Of a stretch of DNA of 64,000 nucleotides, positions 2,598-49,732 are shown in pieces. The notes beneath the pieces were generated by a model that was not told where the DNA came from, did no database searches, and was given only the letters and a program-made list of their open reading frames with translations. This stretch comes from Cliona cf. orientalis (lineage: Eukaryota; Porifera; Demospongiae; Clionaida; Clionaidae). The stretch spans positions 20,403,262 to 20,467,261 of the forward strand of contig OZ005689.1 of NCBI GenBank assembly GCA_963930775.1. Direction: 5' to 3'. How positions within the stretch are numbered: position 1 is the stretch's first letter; every line of letters begins with the position of its first letter. The position numbers and the translations under genes are program-made.

Positions 2598-2995
2598 AGG
2601 AGACCACACACCAAGCAGAAAAAAAATTGTCCGGAAACCACGACGTAGTTGAGCTGGATGCTAAGTAGAGCCATACAATGCAAGCAGGCTGCCTATACTC
2701 CAATTTTGGCCAAATTCAGTAAAGGTCGTCAAATCTATGTGCGCGCTTAGCCCCACCCCTCACGTAGCGCGTGGGCGGAAACATTGCAAATGCATGGCTT
2801 CCTATACAAACATATGGAGAAACTTCAAAGGGACATAACTTATTGTAAGGTGTGAATCAAAAATCAGTTCCATCAAATCTCTAGTTTCGACCCATTCTGC
2901 GTGCCCAAAAATTGTCCCTCCAAGTGCTCCCAAACCCCCCATGAATTAGATTATTTAATTATTTAATTATTTAAGTTTGCTTTTTTTTTCTACTT
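2598..2995 (-). repeat. LINE 3'-tail cassette, first copy (inverted-repeat ends)
   Basis: About 390 bp directly after the LINE coding end. Read on the minus strand it begins CAAGTAGAAAAAAAAAGC and ends TTTTCTGCTTGGTGTGTGG, so its ends are inverted repeats of ACACACTAAGTAGAAAAAAA. It matches 21229-21615, which follows the other LINE copy in the same relative order and orientation. Its outer end carries GGTCTCCTTG, matching GGTCCCCTTG just before the poly(A) of the other copy. Confidence 0.75.
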
Positions 2996-3133
2996 GTATA
3001 ATTTTTGTATATGATAATTCTTGCAGTATTATGCAAGGGATATGCAATAGCAGTATAATACAATTATGCTAATATGAAGCATACCCACAGAATTAATAAA
3101 AGTACAAGTGTAAAATAGTGAAAAAATAACTAA

Positions 3134-5337
3134 TTAAAGTAATCTCTTAAATGCATGTAGTGATGGAGCAGATACTTGTTCTGCAGACAGACTGTTCCAC
3201 AAAGAAATAGAATTAGGTACAAATGAATATAAAAATGAGTTAGTGTGTGCAAGAGGCCGACTAAGAACCATATGGTGAGATCTGGTGGAGTAATAGTGAG
3301 ATGAATATACAAAAATATCTTGAGGGAAGTACGAGTGACCATACAAAATGTTATACAACTGACAACTTTAATTTAGTTCTGCGTTCTGCCAGAGAGGGTA
3401 CTGCACATGTCTCCAACAACTGCTGGTACTCATGGTTCCAGTGTTTTGTAACAATTTTGCATGCAAACTTTTGAACATTTTCTAACGCAGAAATATCCTT
3501 TTGTGTGTGGGGATCCCACAAGGAGCTGGCATATTCTAAATGTGGTCTAACAATGGATAAATGAAGTTGAATGATAGTTTTACAATCAGCTAATCCATAA
3601 AAACGTCTGTATAGGAGCCCAAGGATACGTTTAGCTTTTGAACAAGCAACTTCAATATGTGAAGACCATTTCATATCGCTCGACAGCAATACTCCCAAAT
3701 ACTTGTACAGGGATACTTCACAGAGACTCTGTCCATATAGTTGAAGTGCATTACCAGATAATAGGGGTGAACGTTTTCGTGAAACAATCATATCTTTGCA
3801 TTTCTATGGATTCAGAGACAAAGTTAGAGTCTGACCAGTGTTCAATCGCAGTGATGTCGCATTGAATTTTGAAGTAGTCAGATAGCACTGAGATTGGTCA
3901 ATAAAGAATTACATCATCAGCGAAAAGCGAGAGGTTTGATCCATCAGCAAGTGGCAAGAGTGTTAGTGTGTTAAATCGTTAACATATATAATGAACAAAA
4001 GTGGTCCTAGAACGGATCCTTGGGGCACTACTGACCTTACTGGTATAGTTGATGAGACACTACCATTCACAACAACCTGTTGCAATCTGCTTGATAGATA
4101 GTTCCATATCCATCGTAGGATGTGCTCATTCAGACCAATGCTGCAGTTTTTCTATAAGAGGTCCATGCGGGACACTGTCAAAAGCTTTTTTGTAGTCGAA
4201 AAAGATGATGCAAATATCATTACCTTGGTCAAGATTGTTTAGCCAGTCATGAACTGTGGCAATTAACGATGTAACTGTGCCTTTTCCTTCTGTGAAGCCC
4301 CATTGTCTATTTGAGAGTGGGAAGTGCTCCTCAAGATAGTCTAATATTACATGATGAACATGCCGCTCCAATAGTTTACTAACGATACTCAGCAATGAAA
4401 TAGGTCGATAATTTGTTGGGCTACTGTGATTGTCAGATTTCGGTATAGGTACCACTGTGGACATTTTCCACTGAGAAGGAATCTTCCCCGCTGCGGGGAA
4501 TTGGTTGAACAGTTTGGTAATGCTTGGACCAATGCAGGGTGCTGTGTTTTTTAGCATTTTTGCTGATATCTCATCTGGCCCATTTGCTTTTGATTCATCA
4601 AGAGAGGAAAGCAATTTCTGCACTTCTTCATTGCACAAGAGCTCCTCTGGAAATGGGGTTGTGACAAGTGGCTGTAGGTCCTCACCTCATTAAGAGGATT
4701 GCAGGAGTTATTAAAACATGTAGCAAAATAATTATTTAGCATGTTAGCTTTACCCAAAGAGGTATCAGCAGTTACACCATCATGTGTAAGGGATGGGATA
4801 ACACTTGTGCCCTTGCTTAGTGCTTTAATAGCTTTCCAAAATTGTTTCGGTTTTGCAGGATCCAATGATCGAAAGAATCGTTCTTTTGCTTTTCTCAATA
4901 ACTTGATTCCTTAGCCTCCTATACTGGACGTAATTCCTAGACTGCTTGGCGTACTTATATGCCGCATTTCGTTTACGCATTGTTCTAACGATGTCTTTAT
5001 TTAGCCAGGGAAGGTTTTTCCGTGTCTGAATAATGGCTCGCGGGATACAATCTTTCACAATTTGCATAAACTGATGATGCCAATTAAACCAGCTTTTGTC
5101 CACATCATCTGCTAACAATGAGTTCCAGTCAGTAGCATTAATTTGCTCACAAGCCTTCTCCCAGTCAGCATATGCATATCTCCATACAATTCTTTCAGCT
5201 GTAACATTCACATTGTTTGACTTTGTTTTCCATTGAATTTGCAAGTGAATACCCCTGTGGTCTGAGTTTCCAAGGGGTGGAACGACTGAACATACATTTC
5301 TGCAATAGCTGAACATTAGACATGAATACTTGATCAA
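3134..5337 (-). CDS. LINE ORF2, reverse transcriptase and C-terminal domain, disrupted
   Basis: This is the reverse transcriptase that copies LINE RNA at the target site. Blocks in order are LGNSDH (end of endonuclease), PWLNKDIVRTMRKRN, FWKAIKAL, KANGPDEIS, NYRPISLLS, GFTEGKGT, IIFFDYKKAFDSVPH, VPQGSVLGPLLF (about 3995-4030) and the catalytic FADDVILY (FADD codons 3913-3924). A stop follows FADDVILY directly. The C-terminal conserved region has KYLGVLLSSDMKW, RPHLEYASSLWDP and SLWNSLS, ending with TAA at 3134-3136. The frame changes at least four times, so this copy cannot make an active enzyme. Confidence 0.85.
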
Positions 5338-6082
5338 TTAGTGTAGCAGTGCCGTTATGGTGAACATGAGTTATTTTGGAGACCACTTGCGTCAGACAAA
5401 ATGTATTTGCAAGTTCCGTCATTTTATCATACCAGGAGCTGCTTGCAGAGGCCATGTCTACATTAAAATCTCCCAAAAGGATATAGTTAGAGAATTGAGT
5501 TAGATTCACTAACTCCAGATAGCCAGTTAGATCATTAAAAATTTCAACTGTGGAGCTGGGAGGACGATAGCACAGAGACAAACAGGACTTGAAAGAACCA
5601 AAACGTAGGGTGACAGTAACTATTTCCAGATTGGGGTACTGATTATTGGCATTGGTTTCCACCCGAATCACTTCCCTAATGTACATCAGCACTCCCCCGC
5701 CATGCCTGTTCCTATCCCTCCTTACAATCTGATAACCACTGATATGCAGCTCTGTATTGTTGATGTCGCTAGACAACCAGGATTCTGTTATACATACAAC
5801 ATCATCTGGTTTATGAACTTCACAAAGGATGCGAAGCTCATCACACTTAGGAATTATGCTTCTAGCATTGAAATACAGAATAGACAAGTATTGCTTAGTC
5901 ATACTGGATACGTCAGTTGTGGGTGCTTGTGCAAGAGTTAGGCTAGTAAGGTTACAAGGGGTACTTACAAAGGATTGAAGATGGTGACCCTCAGTGGCAA
6001 GGTGGCCTTCAAGTCAATCTTGATGGGCCTGAGCAGAAGTATCGGTATCGGTAGTGGCAGTGTGATCGAGTGGTGATTGCAT
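5195..6082 (-). CDS. LINE ORF2, 5' part with APE-type endonuclease
   Basis: This part nicks target DNA to prime reverse transcription. A possible ATG lies at 6080-6082, followed by 22 codons and a TGA (6014-6016). The same frame then continues through an ATG at 5902. Endonuclease landmarks in order are FNARS, ITESWL (catalytic Glu), GGGVLMYIR, YRPPSS, GDFNVD and the block ending LIDQVF. The final SDH motif (LGNSDHRG) lies in another frame just downstream, so at least one frameshift separates it. The family usually has a single long ORF2 here. The TGA after 22 codons could be a real short upstream ORF or decay. Confidence 0.8.
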
Positions 6083-6190
6083 GGTGCGCGTGCTTACTTC
6101 AGCTGTGGCTGTGTGTGCTTCACTTGGAGCTTGCTCGAGTTAGTCTTTTTGGATAGTCAGATTGAGGTTTTGCGAAGCTAACATACATGT

Positions 6191-6860
6191 AAGCTGATAC
6201 TAGGTATGTGACTGTCGAGAAGATCTATGTGTTTGTGGCAGTACCAGTTCGTAATTTCATGCTGGCTCAAAAATTACTGGCACCTGAGGCTTCTGGTTTG
6301 ATGGTAGGCTTACATTTACTTGTATGTTGGATATCACTGGCGAGTGTGGCACTACTGCCATACTTGGTGTCATCGCCACATAAGTTGCTCAGACCGTTTT
6401 TACTATGTAGCTATGGTGAAGGGTATTATTCTACTCTTGTTAGTGGCTATAGTGCTTACAAAGTTTGTGAATTTCACGTTTGGTGGCGAGGCCCTTTGTT
6501 GCACAGTTGAGTTACAAGTTACCGTGCGTGGATGGATTAAAATGCAGTGTGATGCTCACACTTTGTATGTTACTATCTGATTTAAAGTTCGGGTGGCTCC
6601 TTTGATCTACGTCATAATAATGTATGTATGTAAGTATGACACAAGTACAATACATGTAGTTGTGTATGTTGCCACCAGAAGCAGTCTAAGACTTTGTAAA
6701 TTTCTCTGGGTAGCGTTCCTCCAGTTCCCTTGAGTTTGGAGTTGAGGCAAGCTGCACTGCCATATGATATACGTATAACTCCCACCCCCCCCCCCCCCCC
6801 CCCCCCGCCTTTCCTCTGAAAATAGCTTCCTGTATTATTGTGTCATTATATTATACAACA
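6191..6860. other. No gene seen; part of a dispersed repeat and a C22 tract
   Basis: No convincing coding frame. The stretch 6665-6850 is homologous to 17850-17970: both run from an AGCAGT..AAG.CTTTGTAAATTTC motif through a C-rich tract to ATTATTGTGTCATTAT. An uninterrupted run of 22 C lies at 6785-6806. Confidence 0.6.
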
Positions 6861-7208
6861 AGTATAAAAACAATTGAATAAATTGAAGGATGAAGTAGGG
6901 ATGGCAGGATCAAAAGTATACGAACAAGATTTTGTAGGGATAACCACATCCACTTTATATTCCTACGCTTGCTTTTTGAGTAGCTATAAGCTTATGCATG
7001 GGGAGCAAAGTAATCAGTAATAATGCGATGAATCAAAACTGAGCCATCAGTGATAGGGGACAAAATTTCTCCCATATGTAAGTCAAGAAGCGCTCCAAGA
7101 AGCTCAGTTGGATAGCACGAACAAGTCAATATCAATAGGTGCATGATAAGCAAGCGTAGGGATGTATAGTGGATGTGGTTATCCCTACAAATCTTGTTCG
7201 TATCCTGT
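6861..7208. mobile_element. Foldback element, GAAGTAGGGATGGCAG family, copy 1
   Basis: Left arm GTAGGGATGGCAGGATC...ACGAACAAG...TCCTACGCTTGC is mirrored on the right by GCAAGCGTAGGGATG...CTTGTTCGTATCCTG. The outermost part of the right arm, present in the copy at 38765-39131, is missing here. It has no coding capacity, so it is a non-autonomous hairpin-forming element. Confidence 0.75.
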
Positions 7209-7451
7209 AGTGAATTTAAAGGCATTGTACCACGACATATGGACTATTTTTAGTAAATTAGTGTCGCACGTGATGTAACCATGCCCATTAGTTTGAAATC
7301 TGGCAGCCACTTTTCAATCAGTGGCAAAAATATTGTCAAATTGCATTAAATAATAGCTTAAGACTGAGTAGTGGAAGAAGCCTGAGTGGTGGTAAATGCC
7401 TGAGTGGTGGTTGGGGCTGACCACTCTTGACCAGTGTGGGCAGAATCCTAG

Positions 7452-8230
7452 AGCTTGCACCATAGAGCTTGTGCTAAAGAACTAAAAATTGTTGGAGCTT
7501 GCACCATAGAGCTTGCACTGTGTATACCTTAGATGATTTCGCTGGCACAGTTAGAGTGGGTAGAAATCATCTCAGGCGCAGTTAGAGCTTGGTAGAAATC
7601 ATCTAAGGTACTTGGTATTGTTACTATGGTATACCAATGCTTCACCATACAAGCACTGCACACTGATTAAATTATTGTGGGCTAGGGTAGCTGAATATGA
7701 TTTGACTGTGGATGCTCTACTGGAGAATGATTTTACTGACATTAGAAGCTGTTACCATAGTAACATATACCAAAGAGTCAGAGCTTGCACTACAGAGTCG
7801 GAGCTTGCACCGTAGAGCTTACACTATAGAGTTCAGTGGCGTGTCCAAGGGGGGCTCAGGGTGCTCGAGCACCCCCCTCAGCTCTGGAACAACAGTCAGA
7901 TCAGTAGCTCAGTGGCAACTATTTATGCTGATAATCGACAATTGGTAGCCAGAACCAACAATAAACTTACTGGCCTCTACAATTCGCTCTCTAAACAACT
8001 CTTTCTTGTCGCTACTTGGCCAAAACAGCCATCTTCGTCAGCCAGCTATCTTCAAGAACGCGTTAGCGAGGGGCGTGGTCAACGTTTTGGGGGCGTGGCT
8101 TAAAATTTTGCGCGCGATTGGCTTAGCACCTCCCTCCTTCAAATCCTGGACACGCCACTGGAGTTTGCACCATAGAGCTAGCTAGCTAGAGCTTGCACCA
8201 TAAAGCTTGCGCTATATAGCTATTTAGAGC
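7452..8230 (+). repeat. Short interspersed repeats of GAGCTTGCACCATAGAGCTT
   Basis: At least six imperfect copies of a roughly 20-bp unit lie near 7452, 7496, 7781, 7801, 8163 and 8193. A hAT-like MITE (7834-8160) sits inside one of them. The spacer 7530-7600 also repeats TAGAAATCATCT. No function is evident. Confidence 0.65.
7834..8160. mobile_element. hAT-like MITE with 5-bp duplication GAGTT
   Basis: The ends are inverted, CAGTGGCGTGTCC and GGACACGCCACTG. The element is flanked on both sides by GAGTT. The CAGTGGCG start resembles hAT ends, although hAT usually makes 8-bp duplications. The interior holds CTCAGGGTGCTCGAGCACCCCC, also present in the relative at 38372-38703. No coding region. 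Confidence 0.75.
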
Positions 8231-8249: not shown

Positions 8250-8410
8250 ATGTCTGTTGTCATGCTATCTTCCTACATAGCTCGTTTGGACTGCGATGTT
8301 ATAAGGTTCCTTGCAGCGTTTTGATTGTATGTATTGTGTGGATTTAGCTGAAAGTGTTTCATTCAAGTTCTGGCATTTGCTGCCTTCCTCGCTCCCTGGC
8401 AGAAAAGAGA
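8250..8410 (-). repeat. Dispersed repeat, copy 1 (others at 40125-40330 and 49050-49245)
   Basis: Read on the minus strand it shares GAGCGAGGAAGGCAGC, CAGCTAAATCCACACAATAC and AATCAAAACGC with the plus-strand copies at 40.1 and 49.1 kb. The family is unknown. It may carry flanking host-like sequence. Confidence 0.6.
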
Positions 8411-28700: not shown

Positions 28701-31700
28701 CTGTTAAAAGTCTCTCCTTAAGTGTAGCATGTTCGAGAACACTACCATTTAGCAACATGGATGCTGCATTAGTGTCCAAGCAAATCACACGAAGGTGAGT
28801 GGAAGGAGGATTTGGAGAATGCATAGGAGGCAAAGGCCGAGGTGGAGTGGCTAGGGTGCTGCTACTCAGTGAAGCGACTGGTGACGGTGGAATATCAAAA
28901 TATCTGGTATAATTCAGCAATGATGACTGCAAGTTAAATGATGACAAATAAAGACCCATATTTAGTGTAGCTGGAAATACTGGAGGGAATTTAAATTGGC
29001 AAATGGCATATTACAAAATATTACCAGATAAAATTAGTTTCGCATGAGATCACCACCACTCTTTTTATAAGCAAACGGTTGTCAGAAAACCACACAGCCA
29101 AATTGAATTCCCTGCCCAATTATTCAGTCATTACGTGAACACATGGTTCACCTTTACTATACTACTACATACTGTACCTGAGTTGGTTGACACCCTTCCA
29201 CGAGTTCAGGAAACTCTCTCTCTGATCGGGGACGCTGAGTTGGTTAAGGTACCATTTAATTGCGTGGGCGTGAGTGTCAGGAATGGCTAATTCAATTAGC
29301 GAATCGTGAAGGGGCGTGGCCGAAGAGGCCATACGAGTGCTTTTGGTCGAAGGTGGGCGTGTCCAGAATCGGCCAGGGATGATTATGCGCGTGTAATTAG
29401 CGACCGGAAGTGGCCCCCGAAGAAAAGGCCGGTAATTGCCCACATCAAAGCAAGATCAAAGCATTCTTGCTTAACTATTAACCGCAACGACTTAAAAAAA
29501 AAAAAAAAAAAAAAAAAAGCTAATTAGGCTTAATTAAGCATGTGGGCGTGTTCCTGGCACTGTGTGGAGTGTGTGCGTGTGCGTTAATGCAGGTTTTATT
29601 GCTTCCGATTGGGCGTGGCTTCACAGGCCAGTGCTTGGACATCGGGGCCGGGGACTTGGCTGCGGCGATAGGTGGGCGTGTCCCGGATGCGGTGGTGACC
29701 TTTGAACCCCACGAGGAGGCCTTGGGGGCGTGGCAGAAGGTCAAAGGTGAGGCCATGTCTGTTAATGAGGCACTGTACGGCGGTGCGATCGAGGGGCCCG
29801 TACGGCTGGACGGAAGCTGACGATGGTTTGAAGCGGATGTGGTTGCGATGACGTGTTGTTACTCCGCCCACACAGGAAATGAGGTGAGCTCTTGCGTGGG
29901 CGGTGTGGCAGAACGGCCTCCAAGTGTTTGTGTGTGTTTTGGCCTTGAGGAAGCTGTGTGTTTTAATTGGGATTGATTGTGGGCTTCCGGTGGACATCCG
30001 GTGGTTAGTAGGCACTTGATTGAGAATGGTGGTCCTTGGGGAACAGGGTGGGGCTGTTTTGGGCGTGGCCTGGCCCCTCCCTTCCGGCTCGGCTTCCGGT
30101 CCATGGAGGATATTAAATGAACACTTCCGGCTCTAGCAGCCACACCCCTGAGACCTGTGCAATTAAAAGGGCGTGGTTACACATCATGCACCTCACTAAT
30201 GACTTTGATGTGGTTTAGGTGTCATATCCCCACCTCACGCCCACGCAATTTAATGGTACCTTAAACATAGCACACACATTAATTTTGAACTCAAACATTG
30301 AGTTTACACTTCCTGCTATTGTAATTATTTATCCTAAGACACCAGTTTGCGAGGAAAATAGGAAATGACGTTACTAGTACAGCTAATGGTAGCCTTACAC
30401 AGCTAAGTCTTGCAGGCCAGCCCATCCTATTTAAAAAAAAAGGGGAGGGTCTGGTGAACTGATTTGCCTCCGCTTGTCCCGATGGAATGCACACAGCACT
30501 ATTAATTAACCCTTTAGGGCCGACATTCGCGCACGCGCGTAAGGGGTGGGGCCGAGATTAATTTTTGCTGACAAGCTATTCATGGCGTACGAGTTGACTG
30601 GTGTTAGTTAGGACGTTATTTCTAAAAAAGAACGGATAAGGAGGAGATATTTACGAAGCACCGTGATCGTGCTAAGCCAGGAGTACCTTTTGGTGGAGAT
30701 GGATCGCGAATCAGCACTCTCCCAGACTAGGTAAGTCTTCATATACAGTAACATGGATAATTTTCAATACTCATGAGCTTTGTAAGCTTTGCGCTTGGAG
30801 CGGCTCGTTCTCTGAAGCTTTTAGAATAAGTGCCAGTGGCGCTTAGCCTCTAGAGAACTCGCTGCTCCAAGCGCCAAGCTTACAAAGACGACTTTTGTAT
30901 TCTTACACAAGCCGATTCAATATTGAGTGGGGAGGCCCCTCTTCGGGAGCGATACTTGAAATGTTATTGATTTTGGGGGGGGGGGGGGGGGGTGTCAAGA
31001 AAGGGAGAGAGCAAAAGAGAGAGTGAGAGCAAGGCAATAACCTCATAACATAAATAAATAGGCTATGTGCATGCATTAGAGGCCATGCCACAGTCTAAAA
31101 CAGTCACTGCCATCTTGTCTTCCAGTGAGACAAAGGGAAGGATGACCCTCGCAAGCTGTGCAGATCCACACAGACTCTTTTCGTCGTGGAGGAGTGCGAT
31201 GATCCCTGCAGTAGACACGGCGTGTACTCTTTGAGTGTGTCGGTAAGTGAGTTGTACTGATAGGGGCGTGTGGTGGGGAGGGGCGTTTACGTGGGCGACC
31301 AGCTCTTTTCCTACTACAGTAGTTTCCAATGAGCTGCTCAGCAAGTTTCACTCTAAACTGTTTCAGCGTCATTGGAGTGCCAGTCACAACATCGAACTTT
31401 GTTAGAATGAAAGAATTTGTTACTGACACATCAAACATGAACCAAAAGATGTACTTATAGTTCTTAGTACACTTGAGGCGGACCTGGTAGTATCCTCTGA
31501 GCTGATCTCCCTCGTCAACACCACCCATGTGCTCGTTGTACAGCTGGATACACCTAGGGCAAGTGAATGAAACTCGAGTGCCATCCTTCTGTCGTCGGTC
31601 GACTGTGGTCATGTCGTCGGGGCTTGCAAGTGTGGATGCAACATTCACCACCTTGTTGTCCTTCCATGCTGTTGCTACGACATTCCCACACTGACGGAAG

Positions 31701-32913
31701 GTGCATTCACCACGCTTGAATTTCTGAGCCTCTGTGTTGATCTCAGAAGGATACTGCTTCTGGTTGGTTCTGATGGTACCACATGCGTAGGTCTGTTGAG
31801 AGAGCAGCTTGGTGAGAAGGCTAATGGAGGTGAAATAGTTGTCAAAATACAACTAATGATTCCTTCCTTTGATGGACTCTGCCAACGTGAGCACTACCTT
31901 CTCCCCTAGACCAGTCTCACGCTCTCCCGTTGCTCCTGTGTACACGTTGAAATCGTACATGTATCCATTCGACGCGTCTGCCATTGCCCACACCTTGAAT
32001 CCTCGCTTGACAGGTTTGAGAGGGAGATATTGTTTCATTGATGATCGACCTTTGAAAGGGATCATTGCCTCATCAATGCTCACTTCACAGTGGGGATAGT
32101 ACGCTGCCTGAAAGTTATTCTTCAGAGCTGTTATCACAGGGTCCACCTTCTGCAGCCGAGAGAAGCCTTCTTCACCTCTTGATGGTAGCGAGTCATTATC
32201 AACGAAATGAAGGTAACGCGTGATCTCCTCAAACCTGTCACGAGTTATCCTGTCCGCAATGGGGGCATACCTGAAGGTGGGATCCACAGACCAGTAGTCG
32301 CGTATCTCTGGGAGCTTGTTGATGCCCATGAGTATCATGAAACCCATATATGCTCTGATCTCATCGGCATCTGTTTCCCACACCTTGTTGGTACCCTGCA
32401 GTGTCTGTTTTGCGTACCGGTTCGTCTCGTTGACAATTAGACCCACTAGATTATCGTCAAAAAAGAGCGAAAATAGGCCAAGAGGGTCACCGGGGAGTGG
32501 TACTATAGGGCCGGGCTGCTCAGTAAAGGGATCGATGATAACAGGGTGTGCTTGGTTTGACCATTCTGCAATAAAATGTAATGCTTACATACATTTCTTG
32601 TCTATATCAATTTATGTTCTTACTGATTGTGTTAGGTGCTGATCCACTGGAAGGTTGGGGAGTAGAATCGGAGTCAGAATCTGAACCACTTGGGCTGTTA
32701 TTATACACTGTAAAGGTGTGTTGTGTGTAGCAAAGTATGGTATTATGTATTTCGATGATCTAATATATCCCTGCATACATACACACACACACACACATGT
32801 ACACATACTCCCTCTGGCATTGCTGGATGGTTCTTATGGTGTGGACTATACACACGGTATGGATTTATCTTCTTTCTACATGTATGTCCATGGTCTCTGC
32901 ATATGCATGCACA

Positions 32914-32976
<63 letters not shown>

Positions 32977-33470
32977 GCACACACACACACACACACACAT
33001 ACACACAGAGTCTAATATTGCATGTAGCTAATCACACTGTCTGCTAGTAGCCACAAGGGAACCCCTAGGGTAATAAGTGGTGGGAAAGGGCTGTAACTTG
33101 TTAAGCTTGTTAACCACTGGTGACGAATATTCAACAGCCATCTAGAAGGTTATTTATATAAAAGTACATCACAAAGTTACTTTATCAGTCTTGGGCAGCT
33201 AGCAAAAAATGGCCTCATCTTCTCTTAGACTATCAGGTATTACTATAATTGTATACTATATGATCTATGTGTAGGCCATAAATAAACCCATCATGTAACA
33301 TGTCCACAAACTTGGGGATCGGAGCAGTCTGGGTGAGTGGGGAGAGTTCCCCCGGGGACAAAGAGCTCTTTTAACCCACCATTCCTGGTTCTCAAGGCCA
33401 GGCATCTAGCTTGCCTCCCAATACACAAATCATGTTTAGCTAAGAATTAAAGGTGTTTCTTCTTTTTTGT

Positions 33471-33503
<33 letters not shown>

Positions 33504-33678
33504 AGGGTATAAAAAGGAATTTTGTGAAGAGTCAGATGAACCAATGGAAACTGAATACCCTGCTGCATCGTGCAGTATTATACTCCCATCTTTAGAAGAG
33601 CATATAGCCTCCAGTCATGGACAGCTGACAGACGTCACTCCCACCCCCTTTCCTTTTCTTTAAAACACACACACACAT

Positions 33679-33710
<32 letters not shown>

Positions 33711-34064
33711 GCACACACACACACGTACACATATATACTCCCTCTGGCATTGCTGGATGGTTCTTATGGTGTGGACTATACACACAGTATGGATTTATCT
33801 TCTTTCTACATGTATGTCCATGGTCTTTGCACATGCACGCACACGCACACACACATACTCCCTCTGGCATTGCTGGATGGATCTTATGGTGTGGACACGG
33901 TATGGATTTATCTTCTTTCTACTACTATGGCACTGTAAGTGCTGAGTAACAACATGTACAATATTATATTTCCCTGTCATGTACGCTACATGTACATGTA
34001 TGTTCATGGTCCCCACACATGCATGCACATGCATGTTTATGGTCCCCACACATGCATGCACATG

Positions 34065-34111
<47 letters not shown>

Positions 34112-37100
34112 GCACACGTACACACGCACACACACTTCTGTCTCACATTCAACCCAGTCAGGTATCAGGCAATGATGTATTATTTTTATTTACTTGTGAC
34201 ATGCACAAAAATTGATTCTGCTTGCCATGCACCTCAGTGTTTCTGGACACATCTACCTTCGAACTCCCCCCCCCCTTATGATTATGCATATCAGATTTGC
34301 TTTAGAGTATATTGAGTCTAATATTAGTCATTCTTTGTAATCGTGCACTGCAGGCTCTCACAGGATAGAGTGGGTTCTGGAGATGCTGGTGGTTGATCAA
34401 GATCCAAGTCATCGTATTCTGCATAGGAATTTAGAAATTTTTTCACTACTAATAATGTGAATGAATATTTGGCTCAATATTATAATTATCAAAAATATAC
34501 CTTCTCCTGAGCTATTGTAATAGTCACTGTCCATTCCCAAGTCATCATCACTACCATCAGCAACTGGGCCAGCTGAAGCATCAAGCTCCTCCAGCACTCT
34601 ACTTAGTGGGATTCTCCCTCTTGTTGCCATGCTCTTTGCAGCCACTCAAAGGTTACCACAACGCGACCAAACACTTGACCTGAGTGTAGCGCGCAGCTGC
34701 AGATCGCCCGCTATAGCTTCAGTGACATCACGAACGATCAAGGACTTGATAGCGCCGCCGTTCGGTAAGGGTTGTCTCAGTGAATGGTGCGATAATGTAT
34801 ATATCCGCTCTCGTCAATTAACGCGCGCGGATATATCCGCTCTAGGCCCTAAAGGGTTAAACGTGATCTTGTTAACCACAAAATTTGCGTTCATATGGCG
34901 CATATTGCAGCAATTCATGGACATATACTGCATGCAAGTCAGGTAAGCTTCGAATTACATATCCTATTCCGGTGCACGATCGTTTTGAGAATTAAACAAT
35001 CGCGTGATTGTAAAAATGATGGACATGCGTGTACTGCGAAACGGTGTGAAAACGGAAACGGTTAATTGGTAGGCATGATCGTACTGCAATAATTGACCGT
35101 TCTCTATTGCGATGTGGAAGATTCGAGACAGGTATTCTTCATTCGCTAAGGAATTATGGGCTAAAAATCACTTTTTGGGACATGCGTCTGAAACACATTC
35201 AAGCCTCAGGAAGTGCATCCCGGGCCACATTCCAATGCATGAAGTATTTGCTGTTTTTTCATACTTGTCCTATCTAGGCCATCCTTCACTTTCAGGACTC
35301 CAAACTAAGACCAGAAGATACGCTACTTTCTTCTCATTTAAGTCCTATAACCCAGAGATTTCCACGGTGAACGTTGTCGTACATGCTATCCGCCAGCGCT
35401 TGAAAAAGTAGCCTGTGCAAAAAGTGGCACAGTTTGGTTCCCTGGGTAGATTCCCATGATTCAACCACTATTGTGTAGCTCGAGTTACTCCACAGTATGA
35501 GACTGGAACGAAGTTTTCCCATTGAGCGGTTCCAGAGTTACATAGTGGTAATAATTGGTCAAAAATCCAAACTTTAATACAATCACGAGAGGTTTTGTGG
35601 AGAATTCATCAGGTAGTCAATGGTTTTACAGAAATCATCTGGCAGGCAAGTCTTCTCTGTCTCGTTTCAAGTTTCTAGGCTGGCAGTAAGGCCACCAAAG
35701 GAGTAGTCTAGCGTTTTTGAAGAACGAATCTGGACTGTGATCATATGGTATTGAATGGTGAGTGTATAGAGCAAGAGAGAGACGTGTTAGGAGTGATAGC
35801 TATCAGGCTATTAAATACGAAGCTGCTCCATCCAGGGGAATCAAAACATGCCACTTTTTACGCGAGGCACTTTCTCGAGCGCTTGCGAATAGCATGCACA
35901 AAACAGTTATCCGCGAACCCCATGCATGTCTCCGGGTTAAACGAGAAGGAAGTAGAAGACGTGTTCTATCTTCTGGTCTTTGTCTGGAGCCCTAGAAGTG
36001 GAAGGATGATCTAGTAGATAAAAACGGCGAAAATTTTACGCATTGAAATGTGGCACCAGATGGATCTGCAACGAATGGACCGCTGGCATGCATTAATGAG
36101 TGTTTTGTTAACATACCTTTTCTCTAGACCTTCTGGTCAACCTCTGGATTTCAGAGTCACAACTAGAGTCTGAATCATCCTCAGGCTGCAATAAAGAACA
36201 AAATAATATCATTGGCAGTTAATGGTGATACCACAGCATCCAACCAAGTGTGCCAACTCCTTGTAGGTATCTATGTACTGAACTTCACAGGTACTATAAC
36301 TATTCCATACAAACAATGCAATTATCTCCCATGCAACACCATGGGGGCCGAAAATCAATAGTGGGATTAGGGTTGCGTGGGCATACACCTGGGACACAAT
36401 TACCACATCCATGTAATCACTACGAGCATAAATATTCTTGCATACTAAGTTATATACAGTATGCAACAATGTACAACTATGGGTTCGCCCCCCACCCCCA
36501 TGGAATATGTAAATGCTGTCCCTTCCACAAAATCCTAAATGCAGCCCTGAAGCTACTATACAATAAATCAGTTGATACATGAATAACTGGTAGTATGTTG
36601 CCTTCGGGCTTCGTCCTTGTTACAACATCAATCCCTTGTGTAACATAATTTGTATTTACCAGTTACCCATGTATCAATCATTAATTGTGACCGGATTTGG
36701 GAAAATCCTCCGTATGGGATTTTTTTTCAAAAAATTGAGTTTGATGCATGGTTGATAAGCTCTACCATAGAGCTGACCCACATTCAAGTCTTAGGCCGAT
36801 TGTGTGCTTGGTTGTGGAGATACAGCGCTTTGTTTGCGATCGCGCCACACCCCAAAAAATCGAGAAATTATAGTCTAAAGGTGTTGCTATGCACGCGTAT
36901 GGCGTTCCCGCATACTATTGTGACCCGGAAATCAATTAAATGGACCTGGGCGGAGCCGTTCGAAATGAACATAAAGATCGAGCAAGAGTTGAATTTCGTT
37001 GTTGACGACAGCCGATTGTTCTTAGATGCCCAAGAAGCTAAAAAAGGTGAGCGAACATACAGTAGTTTGATTATATATGAATCTAGGCTGTATCTAGGTA

Positions 37101-49049: not shown

Positions 49050-49245
49050 ACTGTGATTGAAAGCTCTTCAAGAAGTGAAGAAGGCTATGGTGGTCAGCAA
49101 ATGTGCCAGAAGTTTTGAACAAAAGCATTTTCAACTAAATCCACACAATTCAGACCTTGAAAATGCCCTAAAAAGCCTAATATTTGCATCTTATTAACCA
49201 GATATGTATGTAGCAGCTGGCATGGTAACAGACACACACACAAGT
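49050..49245 (+). repeat. Dispersed repeat, copy 3
   Basis: Shares AAGAAGGC...GGTCAGCAAA, CAACTAAATCCACACAATTC and GGCATGGTAACAGACACACA with 40.1 kb. It is followed directly by the promoter-exon unit. Confidence 0.65.
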
Positions 49246-49249
49246 CTGG

Positions 49250-49672
49250 TATTTAATTAGAAGTAATTACAGTGCCTGCTATTAAATAGCCACAAGGGAA
49301 TCCCTACAGTAAAAAGTAGTGGGAAGAGGGCTGGAGCTTGTTATGTGTTAACCACTAGTGATAACATCCAGCAGCCTTCTAAAAGGGCTTAGAAGGGATA
49401 AAAATGTATCACAGAGTTTCTATACTGAATTTGAGCTACCAGAATGGCATCTTCTTCTTTGTCAGGTATCTAGCATAAAAAGTAACTGTGTAAATTTATG
49501 ATCTATGTGTAGGCCATAAACTAAACCCATCATGTAACTTGTCCACAAACTTGGGAAGCAGTCTGGGTGAGAGTAAGAAGAGTTCCCCCAGGGACAAAGA
49601 GCTCTTTTAGCCAGCATAATAGTCTCCACTCAATAGACAGTGGACAGATGCCATTCCCAACCCTCTTTTCTT
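49250..49672 (+). repeat. Promoter-exon unit, copy outside piggyBac-2
   Basis: Homologous to 33015-33665. It holds GATAAAAATG (49397), an ATG at 49444 (MASSSLS) and the donor CAG|GTATCT. The second exon is mostly absent. CT and CA microsatellites (49669-49729) follow, as CA arrays follow the other copy. Confidence 0.75.

Positions 49673-49732
<60 letters not shown>

Follow-up and report, generated by a model that had tools for sequence, protein, structure and literature searches.

A nested segment within a piggyBac intron

The window, a 64-kb stretch of Cliona cf. orientalis DNA in whose positions the coordinates of the nested unit are given, holds a piggyBac-type transposase gene on its minus strand (Pfam DDE_Tnp_1_7, E values 4.7e-31 and 8.4e-60; zf-Tnp_2, 2.8e-5). 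Within this gene, on the opposite strand, lies a segment in which the original prediction had described a TATA-like box, an ATG, the peptide MASSSLRLS and a clean splice donor, and all four are present. The second copy that had been proposed within the window was also found; it has 76% identity over query positions 15-362 and its exon ends at ATGGCATCTTCTTCTTTGTCAG/GT. The features are as follows.

31076..34645 (outer limits approximate), minus strand: host gene, a piggyBac-type transposase with introns (Pfam, frames)
32931..32990: left direct-repeat copy, CA-rich, 60 bp, read as a target-site duplication (exact repeat)
33010..33665, plus strand: solo pLTR (W subfamily) of a Penelope-like element (PLE) (genome copies, borders, RT/GIY-YIG relatives)
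33125..33132, plus strand: HSE-like palindrome GAATATTC (pattern count upstream of the ATG)
33155-33163, plus strand: TATA-like box TATATAAAA (sequence, alignment)
33209..33236, plus strand: putative 5' coding exon MASSSLRLS-G, phase 1 (ATG at 33209; donor TCAG/GT at 33236/33237)
33237..33665, plus strand: predicted intron part of the pLTR (acceptors in full-length relatives)
33283..33410, plus strand: best conserved intronic block, 128 bp (85-88% identical to L033, L034, L038 and L039)
33451..33663, plus strand: 'acidic' open frame, regarded as fortuitous
33665..33724: right direct-repeat copy, 60 bp (exact match to 32931-32990)
49244..49675 (about), plus strand: another solo pLTR, of B type and internally deleted, with its exon MASSSLS at 49444-49465

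Target duplications had been suggested as something to look for at the segment ends, and the exact 60-bp direct repeat brackets the segment. Four paralogous piggyBac introns (L040, L041, L042 and L043) were compared, one further paralogue at 84% being left out. In L040, L041 and L042, which are paralogues of the site rather than alleles, the CA-rich stretch occurs once and uninterrupted, whereas in the window it occurs twice, around the segment. The 20-mer CATACACATACATACATACA is likewise found once in each of these three empty introns and twice in the window. Owing to variation in CA number, the longest contiguous matches to the 60-mer in the three empty sites reach 31, 44 and 31 bases. L043 lacks the whole CA-rich stretch and hence is not a clean empty site and was not counted. 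The piggyBac intron is itself repetitive, with minisatellite-like units (CCCTCTGGCATTGCTGGATGG...) and CA tracts repeating over window positions 32808-34100, and in L043 the stretch between minisatellite-like units has been lost.

When positions 30800-35000 were compared with the fetched loci, every listed match (E 1e-8, longer than 60 bp) fell within 32903-33739. The matches listed are confined to the pLTR with its CA-rich borders and stop short of the piggyBac exons, and their homology ends in (CA)n at both sides. As the matches stop in (CA)n and the piggyBac flanks are not shared among copies, the segment is not a piece of piggyBac, and this candidate was rejected. Readings of the unit as a spliced-leader gene, a tRNA-like sequence or an Rfam RNA were also tried. 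The tRNA search found none for the unit, no Rfam match in the window reached its gathering score, and at E values up to 5 the only matches were far below gathering scores and mostly over simple repeats, so the structured RNA candidate was set aside.

Genomic copies and Penelope-like relatives

A genome search with positions 33015-33665 returned at least 57 matching pieces, and thus the repetition of the unit goes beyond chance. The window copy and nine others span the query from end to end; the identity of the nine is 95-98%, with much of the difference being due to a poly-G run and to length changes. With that run excluded and gaps ignored, these 10 young W copies differ by a mean of 0.39% pairwise and by 1.0% at most. 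Most of the other matching pieces have 70-93% identity, and many are incomplete. We aligned 44 pLTR copies, which are not independent because those of contig C6 and some others are segmental duplicates. The extended homology among L025-L032 (contig C6, 1.48-2.27 Mb) was considered as a host gene family and proved to be a duplicated host cluster that carries old pLTRs; in L025 and L032, long open frames encoding multi-pass membrane proteins run on the other strand from the old pLTR copy.

Relatives of the segment flank reverse transcriptase (RT) and GIY-YIG open reading frames, which identifies the nested unit as a solo pLTR of a Penelope-like retrotransposon. It is a recent insertion. Both the RT domain and the C-terminal GIY-YIG domain of a canonical PLE were found. 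Pfam RVT_1 matched L012 at 5274-6794 (E 1.8e-7), with no match at 0.001 to the split RT pieces of L036, and GIY-YIG (PF01541) matched L012 (8.4e-5), L036 (1.2e-7) and L018 (3.7e-5). KIHK is a PLE-type RT motif. The pLTR-ORF-pLTR or tandem arrangement is seen in two loci, given below, and in the same order on contig C2 (L018/L019).

L036: pLTR about 2910-3600, frames 3834-6812, pLTR about 6942-7617
L012: pLTR about 3509-4156, frames 4425-7383, pLTR about 7561-8205

The target-site duplication of a PLE insertion is represented at the window copy by the 60-bp repeat together with the three empty paralogous sites. A hammerhead ribozyme in or near the pLTR is common in PLEs, though not required by the definition used. 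Rfam found none in the window, L012, L010, L019 or L036, and a regular expression gave two core-like strings only, both without stem II. L045, a PLE body, had no pLTR match. These findings keep one part of the proposal that an unknown promoter-bearing element had entered the transposase intron, namely the insertion and the element's own promoter, and replace the 'unknown' with a PLE pLTR. Nothing seen suggests the alternative then offered, that a piece of host gene had been captured, and the 44 aligned copies with their flanking sequence yielded no homologous host gene (ORFs being listed for eight loci).

The W-type copies of the window, L009, L011 and L014 are solo within the fetched stretches, whereas those of L010 and L013 are paired around a body of about 530 bp, and W-type copies also lie on both sides of the L012 element. 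The bodies of L010 and L013 align to that of L012 at 91-92% and to each other at 97%; in L012, the locus scanned for this, the body had no listed ORF of 110 aa. Among the loci fetched no W-type pLTR directly borders an RT ORF, and therefore the W type looks non-autonomous. As these loci gave no RT element with a W-type pLTR, we infer that the W type is mobilised by a partner. Upstream of its W-type pLTR copy L012 has frames at 194-1618 that resemble another piggyBac-type transposase.

The solo copy could have been left by recombination between the two pLTRs of a longer insertion rather than by a pLTR-length cDNA that inserted directly. Recombination is a frequent source of solo repeats, and W-type pLTR-body-pLTR forms exist in L010 and L013, but at least the four copies named above are solo within the stretches fetched. 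This is not decisive, since pLTR-pLTR recombination also leaves one pLTR between target duplications, and we regard recombination as a possible though somewhat unlikely origin of the copy. For solo pLTRs of Adineta vaga that have no target duplications, PMC3846280 invokes recombination and/or deletion.

Within 210 bp spanning the 5' end, 39 of the 44 copies have a tract of (CA)4 or longer and none has (TG)4, as compared with 5.6% (CA) and 2.3% (TG) of 20,000 random 210-bp windows drawn from the 64-kb window. For the 3' end, 500 bp around and beyond it were taken, a stretch longer than the background windows, and CA was found in 40/44 copies and TG in 1/44. No CA tract was found upstream in 5 and downstream in 4 of the 44 copies. 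The pLTR copies thus sit in (CA)n in one orientation, a pattern consistent with insertion primed by CA. Alternatively, a PLE-derived pLTR with no target preference could have acquired its (CA)n flanks by expansion of its own CA-rich ends after insertion. The pLTR ends do have short CA tracts at the CACACACGTGCTC junctions, and microsatellites expand easily, but at the one site examined, that of the window, the empty paralogues have the CA tract without the insertion, and we consider expansion an unlikely source of the flanks.

Frame junction, putative start exon and leader RNA

In L036, L012, L019 and L044 the N-terminal and RT frames overlap at CA followed by T TTT TTA, with RT in the -1 frame. 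The U UUU UUA junctions lie at the following positions.

L036: 4420-4480
L012: 4973-5027
L019 (reverse complement): 8317-8362
L044 (reverse complement): 1598-1676

TTTTTTA is also found at the junction in L046, L047, L048, L049, L052 and L053, and the duplicate pair L050 and L051 has the five-T run TTTTTA. The heptamer is thus at the -1 overlap in 10/12 clade members examined, or in 8/9 when the near-duplicates L044/L046, L050/L051 and L052/L053 are each counted once; these are 12 clade loci of 68 rows, many of the rows being fragments or distant families. HIV-1 uses a heptamer of this type, and we regard the junction as a candidate programmed -1 frameshift site.

Independent decay, or a small intron of the spliceosomal kind, could instead account for the split between the N-terminal and RT frames. 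L012 and L036 do have other frame breaks with the look of decay, L050 and L051 have the shorter T run, and L048 and L053 have further damage near the junction. Moreover, the 13-mer ATCATTTTTTATC alone occurs at 52 genome places, and hence the heptamer alone is weak evidence; the argument for frameshifting rests on its position and frame. Against decay or an intron, T TTT TTA and the -1 overlap occur at the same point in diverged copies, including L044 and L047 where the frames are otherwise open, and three single-frame outgroup PLEs (L054-L056, with open frames of 878, 920 and 886 aa) contain no stretch of at least five T with an A after it within the 361-401 bp fetched. Decay or an intron is in our view distinctly unlikely, and programmed frameshifting is the reading we retain.

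Upstream of the ATG the palindromes GAATATTC or TTCTAGAA occur within 140 bp in 30/35 copies with a matched exon (35 of the 44 aligned), as compared with 0.41% of random 140-bp windows. They resemble the heat-shock element and may serve as heat-shock-type promoter elements. The original prediction would have become an ordinary repeat had many genomic copies carried a broken ATG and donor. The opposite was found, in that 33/44 aligned copies keep both in the phase 1 pattern ATG GC... TCA G/GT, as scored by a regular expression. By eye L023 and L024 have variants of this pattern; L031 has TCAC/GT at the exon end; L033, L038 and L039 are in phase 0 with AT replacing GT; and in L022, L028, two L034 rows and L035 the pattern is absent or the row was not seen far enough. 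The frame of exon 1 is kept, with the differences between families falling largely at third codon positions (GCA/GCC/GCG/GCT, TCA/TCC/TCT, CTA/CTG/TTG), the exceptions being MAPSS, ATG for a leucine codon and a two-codon insertion in W.

A phase 1 acceptor was found at the start of the N-terminal/RT frame in all three PLEs that have this pLTR type and an ORF (L036, L019 and L012); the acceptors were chosen by eye and each agreement in phase has a one-in-three chance. These acceptors and the introns they predict are given below.

L036: CCCACATTAG/AACAAACG, predicted intron 718 bp
L019: TTTTATCAG/CAACGCAG, predicted intron 734 bp
L012: TTAATCAATAG/TTTTTCTT, predicted intron 669 bp

The open frame has no in-frame ATG in L012 and none before about residue 40 in L036. 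In L019 an in-frame ATG lies just before the acceptor, and as it would be present in unspliced RNA splicing is not strictly needed there. It is plausible that the ATG exon with its donor is the 5' exon of the PLE mRNA; the acceptor partner of the predicted intron would be absent from the solo copy in the window. L057, L059 and L044 (the last by eye) have another pLTR in which no MASSS exon was found, with leader and (CA)n present, and neither leader nor exon was found in the 2 kb fetched of L058 and L060. Outside the block at 33283-33410, L033, L034, L038 and L039 align poorly with the window copy despite their 85-88% identity within it.

The acidic second exon, said to follow in the first copy only, did not hold up. 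Its frame is open in 10/10 young W copies, has a stop in 7/7 older rows that bear the anchor used for the comparison (L015, L016, L018, two of L019, L020 and L021; the anchor is absent in 27/44 rows) and is judged to be chance. L015 and L016 reach the same tail (LEEHIASSHGQLTDVTPTP) in another open frame. Given the stops in the older rows, and with the three full-length relatives pointing to another acceptor, this exon was ruled out. A captured host promoter-exon fragment, or a small two-exon host gene made of the MASSS and acidic exons, could draw on the promoter-like box, ATG and donor, on the acidic frame of the W copies and on the shared tail peptide of L015 and L016, but is highly improbable given the stops in every older testable row, the unit's relatives, which lie on either side of RT/GIY-YIG ORFs and offer these a 5' exon in matching phase, and the absence of common piggyBac flanks among the matches listed.

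Beyond the terminal (CA)n of the pLTR, and inside the predicted intron, lies a GC-rich leader. With a near-exact pattern, by which decayed leaders may be missed, 6/44 pLTR copies were found to run through CACACACGTGCTC into the leader, and no leader was found in the remaining 38, the window copy included. A 25-mer from the aligned leaders occurs at nine genome places, all of them already aligned, and its reversed control at none. RNAalifold on nine leaders (A2), which represent about six families (three W rows are near-identical, and L044 and L059 are close), gave 46 pairs, 9 of which are changed on both sides. Paired cells made up 96.8% as compared with 92.8% in shuffled alignments, there were 20 double-change cells versus 7.6, and the covariation score was 0.292 versus 0.213, none of these values being reached by any of 500 shuffles. 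The count of double-change pairs (9 versus 5.5) was reached by 5/500 shuffles, and further pair types were not above shuffles (209/500). Sliding the partner by 1-3 columns dropped pairing to 39-46%, a test that favours the structure because the structure came from the same alignment. The W bodies of L010, L012 and L013 have no RT ORF and keep the leader, which suggests that it has a cis-acting role.

A model for mobilisation and its precedents

The explanation that in our judgement very probably accounts for the whole is a solo pLTR mobilised in trans into (CA)n, in a lineage with a spliced and frameshifted mRNA and an unspliced template. The RT/GIY-YIG machinery of a related PLE would have inserted the solo pLTR of a non-autonomous PLE into (CA)n of the piggyBac intron and duplicated about 60 bp of target, either by direct insertion or with later recombination between two pLTRs. 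The pLTR would supply the promoter, the start-codon exon and the 5' splice donor. In the full-length relatives transcription would begin in the 5' pLTR, splicing would take out an intron of about 670-730 bp and join the MASSS..S-G exon to the beginning of the N-terminal/RT frame, and the RT-GIY-YIG fusion would result from a -1 frameshift at U UUU UUA. The unspliced RNA would retain the structured leader and act as template. Binding of the RT complex to the leader would allow cDNA to start on nicked (TG)n, in the (CA)n that immediately precedes the leader, to give copies that end there, like that of the window. Of this picture, the identity of the pLTR, the PLE proteins, the insertion with its direct repeat and empty paralogous sites, its recency, the link to CA, the covariation in the leader and the conserved heptamer with its frame overlap can be read from the sequences themselves; transcription, splicing, frameshifting, the part played by the leader, the start in (CA)n and mobilisation in trans are predicted steps.

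A stronger proposal, which we put forward tentatively as one possibility, is a PLE lineage with a retrovirus-like RNA logic, in which splicing both makes the mRNA, read with the -1 frameshift at UUUUUUA, and removes the leader, so that unspliced RNA alone would start cDNA in (CA)n on genomic (TG)n. As the predicted intron holds covarying RNA beside the (CA)n at which copies end, splicing would separate message from template. If true, this logic would explain both the retention of introns by PLEs and the homing of this lineage to microsatellites. To the question of how PLEs choose their targets and carry introns through an RNA cycle, the lineage offers a concrete and testable answer. The relatives suggest an unusual choice of target and the use of different RNAs for protein and template. 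The system may still be active, as the W copies differ by about 0.4%.

PLEs as such are already known, as are intron retention and pLTRs that carry a TATA box and the first codons. Penelope of Drosophila virilis and Athena of rotifers were reportedly described by Arkhipova in 2003 as 'retroelements containing introns', and like the sponge lineage they keep introns in transposed copies; the sponge lineage differs in that its predicted intron holds a covarying structured RNA beside the presumed initiation site. Microsatellite-specific non-LTR retrotransposons also insert into simple repeats but differ in RT class and endonuclease. A search of titles and the starts of abstracts in one open-access library found no description of a -1 frameshift site in a PLE or of PLE homing to (CA)n or microsatellites.

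The PAc element of Anolis and the canonical GIY-YIG PLEs (Penelope/Poseidon) share with the sponge lineage RT with a C-terminal GIY-YIG, pLTRs and a tandem or partial-tandem layout (PMC11167929). In that paper cDNA initiation by PAc occurs inside the template at an AC-rich stem-loop, and the required RNA lies in the initial 172 nt of the ORF; this internal AC-rich start with a required RNA parallels our proposal, in which cDNA begins in (CA)n and a structured leader follows downstream. PAc as described there has a preference for AT-rich targets, a single ORF and a hammerhead ribozyme, whereas the sponge lineage has (CA)n sites, the UUUUUUA frame junction and a start exon in the pLTR, with no hammerhead found. 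PLE pLTRs are described as carrying hammerhead ribozymes in PMC7761336. The Penelope elements of A. vaga, as presented in PMC3846280, resemble ours in having a pLTR with a TATA box and the first ORF codons, solo pLTRs and target duplications, and in mobilising intron-containing sequences. In that account the first 12 amino acids encoded in the A. vaga pLTR belong directly to the ORF, whereas in the sponge they form a separate exon with a donor. PMC3846280 left undecided whether the PLE template is antisense or unspliced sense RNA. Elsewhere in the sponge genome other PLE families have single open frames of about 880-930 aa (C1:2279440, C3:5731335, C1:18956998, C10:7280457 and C11:4060874).
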